Of a DNA stretch of 63,391 bases, positions 42,640 through 44,526 are shown piece by piece. The notes beneath the pieces were generated by a model. That model did not search any database. It saw only the letters and a list, made by a program, of their open reading frames with translations, and was not told the origin of the DNA. The position numbers and the translations under genes were made by a program. Position 1 is the stretch's first letter. Each line of letters begins with the position of its first letter. This DNA comes from Bacteroidota bacterium. GTDB taxonomy: Bacteria; Bacteroidota; Ignavibacteria; Palsa-1295. The stretch is from positions 1-63,391 of the forward strand of contig JAJPIQ010000054.1 of NCBI GenBank assembly GCA_021324685.1, read 5' to 3'.

Positions 42640-44526
42640 CTAGGCTCCTTTGGGCATTTCGAGCGGTCGATCGCGGTGTGTCAGTATCCAATCTCCGTTT
42701 TCGGCCAGAGCTTCCCTGCCGAGTTCAGCCACAAAATTCTGCGCCTCTTTCAATTTCCCTTTTTCAATCAGTTTTTCGAGGTGCATTTTTGCCCGATGAT
42801 AAAATCCACTCATGCGGTCATATTGCTTGGTGTGCTCCGCGAGAGCGTTCTTTTGTAAATACGAATGGATCAGTGCCGCACTGACGGGCAGCATCGCAAT
42901 GCAAAGGACGAGATAAAGATTTTGCTGTGGTAAAAAAAGTTGAATTCCCGCCAAAAGCAATGTGGTCCCAAAAAGGAATGTGATAAAGCGTTCGTTGCGA
43001 TGAAGTTGCTCTTCGTCCCGGTGTGCGGCACGGCCGAAATAGGTCGCCTGGTCATCGACCCAATATTTTTGCACCAGTTTCAACCGTCCTAAAATTCCTT
43101 CCTCGGTGGTCCATATCTCGTTCGTTTCCGGCTCCGGACAAGTTTCGGTCATGCAGCTCCGGACCGCATGTCGGATCCAGTCTAGCTCGCTTTTTTGCTT
43201 GCGCATGTAATAATCGGCGGCGGAATCGGAAAGTCCGGCCAGTTTCCAGAAAAACTGGACTCTCAAGCCTTCGGCAAGTGCTCGATAATCGAGATATTTC
43301 GTCTGGTACCCTCGCCGGTTCGCCCACGCATACGAAGCCCCAGCGAGCAAAAACATGCTGAGATATAACGCGATCATGACCGGCTGCACGATCGGTCCGG
43401 AATACAACTCATAAAACAACGCCGCGAAAAAGACAAACCAGAGTAATACTTTTGCGGTCGCGAAAGTACGCTTTTGAAACCGTTGCGAAAGCACGTCCGC
43501 AATCGCATAAAAGTCGAGCGCTTCCTTCAGCGAAGCTGGCATTGACGAATGAACTGCTTTCGGAAATACATATTCCCTGCTTTTTTCGAAGTGCCCGCTC
43601 AGCTCAGCCGCATATTTTACGGCGTCCTCGTTAAAGCCTTCCATGCGCTTATAAATATCGCGATACGCCTGCTCGGCTTCGGGCATCGATTCGAAACCCT
43701 CGGGATACATTCGAATAATTTCGAACGGATTATCAGGCCGTTCCGCCGATTCACGGGGCGTTACGATCTGAAAGACCGGCCCGCTGTCCGGAGCGTCGAG
43801 CTCGCTGTGCGGCGGGGCATATGGCTCGGGGACTCCTTCCAGTTTATACCGCACAATTTGCGATGTTCCTCCGATTTTATCGAGCGGAATGCCGTCCCAC
43901 ATTGCAATCAGAATGGAGCAATGGGAGGCGATGTATGCGCCGGCTCGAGCGTACTGCCGCTCACGAGGTGTCGCGTGTTCTAAAATATCGTCAAATGTAT
44001 TTTCAAGCTCCGGCTGCTCGAGCGGGACCTCGAACCAGTGCTCCGATTTTCCGAGCAACTCCCGGAATTCGACGGTCGAAGCCTCATCGAAATCCATTTC
44101 ATAGAGCTCGCGGGGCATCGGAAGAACGCTGATCAGTCGCATTCCAGCGTCCAGAGCGGCCCAGGCGCAGAGACGATCGGCACCGTCCGCGAGGGCAGAA
44201 AGAAGAATAAAAGAGGTCGAAGGATAGAGCTTTTTCAAGGCTTCGAACTCCTCGCGAAGCACGCGCTCCAAATGCGGCACATCGTCCGGGACCAGGTCCC
44301 GATGCCCGGCAATGCCCAGAATGATGGGAAGCGGACCGACGTGGCGCTGCTTTTTGCCCGTGTGCGCAGCGCCGAGTTCCCGTTCGATAAACTCCTCGAC
44401 TACGCTTTCGCTCGTCGATGCTATAATTCGATTGCCTGCAACGGACGCCGATATGGTCTCTGTTCTTTCCAAAAGAATTGCTTTTTGTTTGCGCGCTTGC
44501 TGAAGTTCATGACCCATAATGATCAA
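42640..44526 (-). CDS. SLOG-like domain fused to four-helix SLATT-like membrane region
   Basis: The 628-residue product has an N-terminal nucleotide-binding SLOG-like Rossmann domain (about 66-225): ILGIAGHRDL, LSALADGADRLCAWAAL, SILIAMWDG and GGTSQIV. A mixed linker follows (about 230-350). Two membrane pairs are at about 358-402 and 513-556, separated by cytosolic helices; the end reads EALAENGDWILTHRDRPLE. Burroughs and colleagues (2015) proposed that SLOG and SLATT domains sense nucleotide signals and form pores in conflict systems. No nucleotidyltransferase or partner lies beside it. It converges with the YciF-like gene. Start: M1 or M4 (44517). The fold calls are by eye and the defence role is inferred. 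Confidence 0.65.
   Translation of the reverse strand: MIIMGHELQQARKQKAILLERTETISASVAGNRIIASTSESVVEEFIERELGAAHTGKKQRHVGPLPIILGIAGHRDLVPDDVPHLERVLREEFEALKKLYPSTSFILLSALADGADRLCAWAALDAGMRLISVLPMPRELYEMDFDEASTVEFRELLGKSEHWFEVPLEQPELENTFDDILEHATPRERQYARAGAYIASHCSILIAMWDGIPLDKIGGTSQIVRYKLEGVPEPYAPPHSELDAPDSGPVFQIVTPRESAERPDNPFEIIRMYPEGFESMPEAEQAYRDIYKRMEGFNEDAVKYAAELSGHFEKSREYVFPKAVHSSMPASLKEALDFYAIADVLSQRFQKRTFATAKVLLWFVFFAALFYELYSGPIVQPVMIALYLSMFLLAGASYAWANRRGYQTKYLDYRALAEGLRVQFFWKLAGLSDSAADYYMRKQKSELDWIRHAVRSCMTETCPEPETNEIWTTEEGILGRLKLVQKYWVDDQATYFGRAAHRDEEQLHRNERFITFLFGTTLLLAGIQLFLPQQNLYLVLCIAMLPVSAALIHSYLQKNALAEHTKQYDRMSGFYHRAKMHLEKLIEKGKLKEAQNFVAELGREALAENGDWILTHRDRPLEMPKGA

Follow-up and report, generated by a model that had tools for sequence, protein, structure and literature searches.

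The 628-aa protein encoded on the minus strand at 42640-44526 of the window (the whole stretch of DNA analyzed here, 63,391 nucleotides long) joins a predicted SLOG domain to two different SLATT-like membrane hairpins, and we favor, with moderate confidence, the reading that it is a SLOG-gated membrane effector controlled by TIR-type NAD-cleaving enzymes. The features on which this reading draws are as follows.

42640 to 44526, minus strand: whole gene, for a putative SLOG - SLATT_3-like - SLATT_1-like membrane protein of 628 aa (ORF, motifs, full-length homologues)
44335 to 44526, minus strand: N-terminal extension, residues 1-64, with ESVVEEFIER (alignment, start region)
43756 to 44331, minus strand: predicted SLOG (Rossmann-like) domain, residues 66-257 (AlphaFold model, YpsA fold match, 24-row SLOG alignment)
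43237 to 43536, minus strand: first putative membrane hairpin module, residues 331-430, SLATT_3-like, with segments at ~354-372 and ~379-397, then LDYRALAEGLRVQFFW (Pfam/NCBIfam match below cut-off, model, hydrophobicity)
42763 to 43104, minus strand: second putative membrane hairpin module, residues 475-588, SLATT_1-like, with segments at ~514-532 and ~537-555 and very long helices (Pfam/NCBIfam match below cut-off, model, hydrophobicity)
42646 to 42714, minus strand: C-terminal tail, residues 605-627, EALxENGDWxLxHRxRPLEVPKG, almost unchanged across the close family (alignment)

The host assembly is a draft of 3.47 Mb in 89 contigs. The reading frame opens with TTG, with an ATG three codons downstream, and runs on the minus strand, which the original prediction had left out; the motifs it listed are all present, with GIAGHRDL at residue 71, ADGADRL at 113, IAMWDG at 207, GGTSQIV at 219, and the ending EALAENGDWILTHR. 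Alignment places the start of the conserved part near residue 65. Within the extension that precedes it, ESVVEEFIER is conserved in the same genus only, as ESVxEEFxER, and because the motif is kept within the genus, translation must start upstream of it. Full-length homologues with 40-62% identity occur in every genome of the window's family and further afield, which at the sequence level confirms the ORF as far beyond chance. Compared with a congener, the window gene differs by 0.29, 0.22, and 0.67 at codon positions 1, 2, and 3, a pattern that shows that purifying selection acts on it.

An AlphaFold model of the full protein, built from five sequences, had a mean pLDDT of 78.5 and a pTM of 0.79. 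The best structural match of its N-terminal domain was YpsA (DUF1273, PDB 2nx2; Z 15.8, rmsd 2.4 Å over 158 aligned residues) at 12-13% identity, with further fold matches to DprA, ShosA, a Moco carrier, LOG, and PpnN, those to DprA, ShosA, and LOG at Z 10-12. The SLOG-like, Rossmann-type domain that had been read from motifs is thus borne out, and the predicted structure confirms membership of the SLOG superfamily; the sequence of the whole protein gave no match in the PDB. YpsA is the closest solved fold but is a stand-alone, soluble protein. The pocket loops of the domain are GxxGHR (71-76), AxGADR (113-118), LPMP (135-138), WDG (210-212), and GGT (219-221). In an alignment of 24 SLOG rows, which takes in fused and stand-alone domains, GxxGH, AxGxD, P, WDG, and GGT are conserved and are placed after strands by the secondary structure of the model, and G17, H18, G58, D60, W153, D154, G155, and G162-T164 are invariant or nearly so. 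In other SLOG folds, it is in such post-strand loops that the nucleotide sits.

Four hydrophobic segments, arranged as two pairs, lie in the C-terminal half. The first pair falls within a match to SLATT_3 (residues 339-421; E 1.5e-4 in Pfam and 1e-5 in NCBIfam) and the second within a match to SLATT_1 (residues ~490-591; E 1.7e-3 and 3e-3, respectively); these matches are below the curated cut-offs and agree both with the hydrophobic segments and with the best SLATT-type matches of relatives (SLATT_1 at 8.5e-6 and DUF4231, the annotation of a plasmid homologue, at 4.3e-7). Long helices appear in the model of the full protein and in that of the hairpin part alone, and the predicted architecture is SLATT-like, with two transmembrane helices per module plus long cytosolic helices. 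The proposed combination of SLOG with a SLATT-like membrane module is supported, with the profile matches of the protein itself below cut-off. The internal duplication that had been proposed was rejected: each hairpin matches a SLATT family of its own, and hhalign of hairpin 1 against hairpin 2 detected no similarity, so that they are better read as a tandem of different modules. When the hairpin part was modeled alone and compared with the PDB, only weak and unrelated long-helix and ABC-transporter matches were returned, none of them convincing; among viral models, several weak structural matches are SLATT proteins of giant viruses. Profile searches of the protein gave no match to SIR2, macro, or caspase domains. 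The sub-cut-off SLATT matches and the hairpin part without a solved-structure match both count against the effector reading.

The link to TIR-type enzymes comes from the relatives. Among the 12 loci besides the main copies of the window's family (genus g17 counted once, and the second copy in G010, a family member, included), nine have, at a distance of up to 5 kb, a gene for a TIR or TIR-like DUF4062 protein, where 0.28 would be expected (P ~2e-14), and when three loci with the same neighbor are merged the count is 7 of 10 (P ~4e-11); the expectation uses TIR_2 and DUF4062 matches per genome at a flat gene density, and the P values are a guide only, treating as independent the loci that the searches returned. 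DUF4062 is described as a TIR-like NADase in phage defense, in some cases in operons with other enzymes, in a 2026 preprint (PMC13174449) whose main text is silent on both SLOG and SLATT.

The linked genes encode TIR, TIR-DUF4062-TIR, or DUF4062-STAND-TPR proteins. A ThsB-like TIR gene follows the SLOG-SLATT gene in G285, and in G236 a TIR-NB-ARC-TPR gene precedes it and a RelA/SpoT-LSDAT-RyR gene comes after it. Downstream of the g17 copies and of the second G010 copy lies a DUF4062-STAND-TPR gene, with a gap of ~20 bases in G010. One distant genus has a 445-aa TIR-DUF4062-TIR gene in three genomes (G327, G442, where the effector is broken, and G445, where the enzyme frame is interrupted), a DUF4062-STAND gene in G457, in G427 TIR genes two positions away, and STAND-RyR genes in G457 and G483. 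On Caballeronia plasmids, a SLOG-DUF4231 protein is followed by TIR and WD40 genes. Some details of these loci may be recorded here: the RelA/SpoT protein at L062:10666-13218, which adjoins SLOG-SLATT and TIR genes, carries LSDAT (a TRPM-type SLOG) and RyR; the 445-aa chains at L109:6169-7506 and L111:6023-7360 adjoin the SLOG-SLATT gene and combine TIR and DUF4062 matches with a second, weaker TIR match; and at L109 the next gene encodes a 1406-aa nSTAND1 protein.

Stand-alone relatives of the SLOG domain keep similar company. SLOG occurs alone in TIR-caspase gene runs on plasmids of five lineages (Agrobacterium, Methylorubrum, Bacillus subtilis, and two Rhizobium species), and in Novosphingobium a TIR gene, an unnamed gene, and a SLOG gene follow one another. 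A metagenome contig from a viral collection (L082:1485-6588) has TIR-WD40, patatin-like, and SLOG genes, with domains read from sequence and the TIR supported by further analysis. Near three plasmid copies, two from Streptomyces and one from Cyanobacterium (L086, L087, and L088), no annotated TIR was found, and the link to TIR is therefore strong but not universal. Plasmid loci L040, L041, L042, L083, and L084 resemble type IV Thoeris TIR-caspase operons with a third, stand-alone SLOG gene and sometimes a second TIR gene. Sugar-export genes lie alongside in L082, which resembles a bacterial chromosome. A phage origin of the window gene was considered and rejected: phage records gave no match, and viral contigs yielded a single SLOG relative, which adjoins bacterial sugar-pathway and TIR-WD40 genes.

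Within the window's family the picture is different. The gene is present in 13 of 13 genomes and is inherited vertically, with a tree that tracks genera; elsewhere, full-length copies are sporadic, with four further genomes in the class sample and six of the distant genus in the phylum sample. In the tree, the second G010 copy groups with the g17 copies, all of which adjoin DUF4062 genes, and the distant-genus and divergent TIR-linked copies fall in the other main branch, where three branches are long and their exact position is uncertain. A congener copy at G006:C246:9034-10860 contains in-frame stops, one of them in the conserved part, and may be a pseudogene or an assembly error.

Around the window copy are genes for DUF892 (YciE), a KGG stress-motif protein, MgtC-type, glycosyltransferase, HI0933-like flavoprotein, GNAT acetyltransferase, and DUF4139 proteins. 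Defence models gave no match among ten neighbors, and the neighborhood has no TIR or DUF4062 gene; the seven TIR_2 and two DUF4062 matches of the genome are all on other contigs. Most family copies likewise have housekeeping neighbors. This core, vertical, housekeeping setting, unlike that of typical defense genes, together with the missing TIR/DUF4062 neighbor, speaks against the effector reading at the window copy. The suggested tie to conflict systems is supported for the relatives, whose linkage to TIR, DUF4062, STAND, and RyR genes is strong; a purely housekeeping context, named in the original prediction as grounds for abandoning that tie, is what most copies of the family show and what the wider family does not. 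The earlier observation that no synthase lies next door is likewise right for the window copy and wrong for the wider family.

It is possible, though in our judgment unlikely, that the window's family has domesticated the protein for housekeeping: once a TIR-linked effector, it would now sense a metabolic nucleotide at the membrane (AMP, ADP-ribose, or a related compound), perhaps as a regulated channel with ties to carbon or NAD metabolism. Universal presence with a genus-tracking tree would fit, as would the housekeeping and stress-type neighbors in the window, where no defense genes adjoin. So would the arrangement in genera g2 and g3 and at the main g5 copy, where the gene lies directly 3' of a class I fructose-1,6-bisphosphatase (FBPase) gene, named from its sequence, whose stop overlaps, abuts, or lies at most about a dozen bases from the SLOG-SLATT start in five genomes of the three genera (L049, L050, L052, L054, and L055). 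However, the FBPase arrangement goes back to a single ancestral event, and in the window's own genus, where four congeners have an OmpH/Skp-like gene upstream, no FBPase adjoins the gene. The window gene also changes faster than ValS, YciE, and FBPase by codon-position comparison, which weighs against a settled housekeeping role where ValS and FBPase are concerned; the congener G004 has a DUF4062-STAND gene ~1 kb upstream on the same strand; and the SLOG and hairpin residues are common to the TIR-linked relatives.

A composite of the two readings, which we offer speculatively and hold to be doubtful, is that a TIR-signal-gated SLOG-SLATT effector became fixed as a core gene, was uncoupled from its enzyme, and was paired with FBPase in three genera; it might now be a nucleotide-gated membrane switch that couples carbon metabolism to NAD or energy state, or else a common executioner for many TIR and DUF4062 sensors encoded elsewhere.

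It is improbable that the SLOG domain is instead a membrane-tethered enzyme, a nucleotide hydrolase or nucleosidase, with the hairpins as anchor or oligomerization platform rather than pore. LOG and PpnN enzymes are found among SLOG folds, and GHR, GADR, WDG, and GGT are strongly conserved, largely in stand-alone versions too. Yet the catalytic Glu of the LOG motif PGGxGTxxE (position T+3) is present in 0 of the 24 SLOG rows, and a sensor therefore fits better than a LOG-type enzyme; we dropped the LOG-type phosphoribohydrolase reading on this ground. Two separate SLATT-like modules also exceed the needs of a simple anchor, and the best fold match points the same way: to our knowledge, YpsA has no established enzyme activity. 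Least probable is the self-contained effector first proposed, which would need no partner enzyme and sense a nucleotide of the host or phage directly, for although no synthase gene lies beside the window copy and most family copies, TIR-type enzymes adjoin the relatives' genes far above chance and every genome of the family has TIR-like DUF4062 enzymes.

Under the effector reading that we prefer, a TIR or TIR-like (DUF4062) enzyme would make an ADP-ribose-type nucleotide, which the cytosolic SLOG domain would bind; binding would alter the packing or oligomerization of the two SLATT-like hairpins, which would then permeabilize the inner membrane and halt growth in an infected or stressed cell. 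Because relatives have a TIR-type enzyme next door, an NAD-derived product of such an enzyme is the more likely ligand. Outside the window's family, most relatives have the putative enzyme gene adjoining that of the candidate effector; within the family, the candidate effector gene is fixed on the chromosome, with the enzymes encoded elsewhere, which suggests control in trans. DUF4062 is found in 13 of 13 genomes of the family against 31 of 281 others of the class, a difference that shared descent makes supportive and not decisive. The window copy could act in immunity in trans or have a domesticated function.

SLOG-SLATT proteins are reportedly part of the nucleotide-centered conflict systems set out by Burroughs et al. 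in 2015, in association with TIR, RyR, and STAND genes. The protein described here shares with those the SLOG sensor, the SLATT two-transmembrane effector, and the gene association; unlike them, it has two different SLATT-like modules in tandem, and the window copy is partnerless and a core gene in its family. The pairing of effector and nucleotide-signal enzyme by which such systems are recognized is found at the nine linked loci and not at the window copy.

In Thoeris systems, a single operon encodes both the TIR protein and the nucleotide-binding effector (PMC12847820). The protein shares with type I Thoeris, which has a SIR2-SLOG ThsA and a TIR ThsB, a SLOG domain as the probable receptor for an ADPR derivative that a TIR makes, and relatives have an adjacent TIR; the protein has no SIR2, however, its effector half consists of membrane hairpins, and the window copy has no TIR beside it. 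Type II (transmembrane-macro ThsA, responding to His-ADPR) likewise places a membrane effector under a TIR product (PMC12847820), as proposed here, but has a macro domain in place of SLOG and a different membrane module. Type IV (TIR plus caspase-like protease, with N7-cADPR) resembles the plasmid TIR-caspase operons in which the stand-alone SLOG relatives occur, whereas the SLOG domain here is fused to membrane hairpins and a caspase is absent. A TIR gene (ThsB) at the same locus is found in several relatives and not at the window copy, whose product is none of the named ThsA types; our best reading is that the protein is close to Thoeris in logic and outside its named types. In DRT10, a SLATT protein is required for phage defense, with a predicted pore activity, and its partner is a reverse transcriptase with cDNA and not a TIR-type enzyme; the parts of that report available to us do not mention SLOG (PMC12632851).

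TIR and DUF4062 enzymes may thus have in this protein a testable membrane-effector arm, in which a SLOG receptor like that of type I Thoeris would drive a membrane module like that of type II, and natural enzyme-effector pairs are available in G327, in G457, and with the second G010 copy. It also raises the question of how a defense-type effector becomes a core gene, adjoining a gluconeogenic enzyme in some genera. A separate observation concerns the congener G004, in which about ten TIR genes lie in tandem (G004:C5:8454-25004) and TIR_2 matches number 25 genome-wide.
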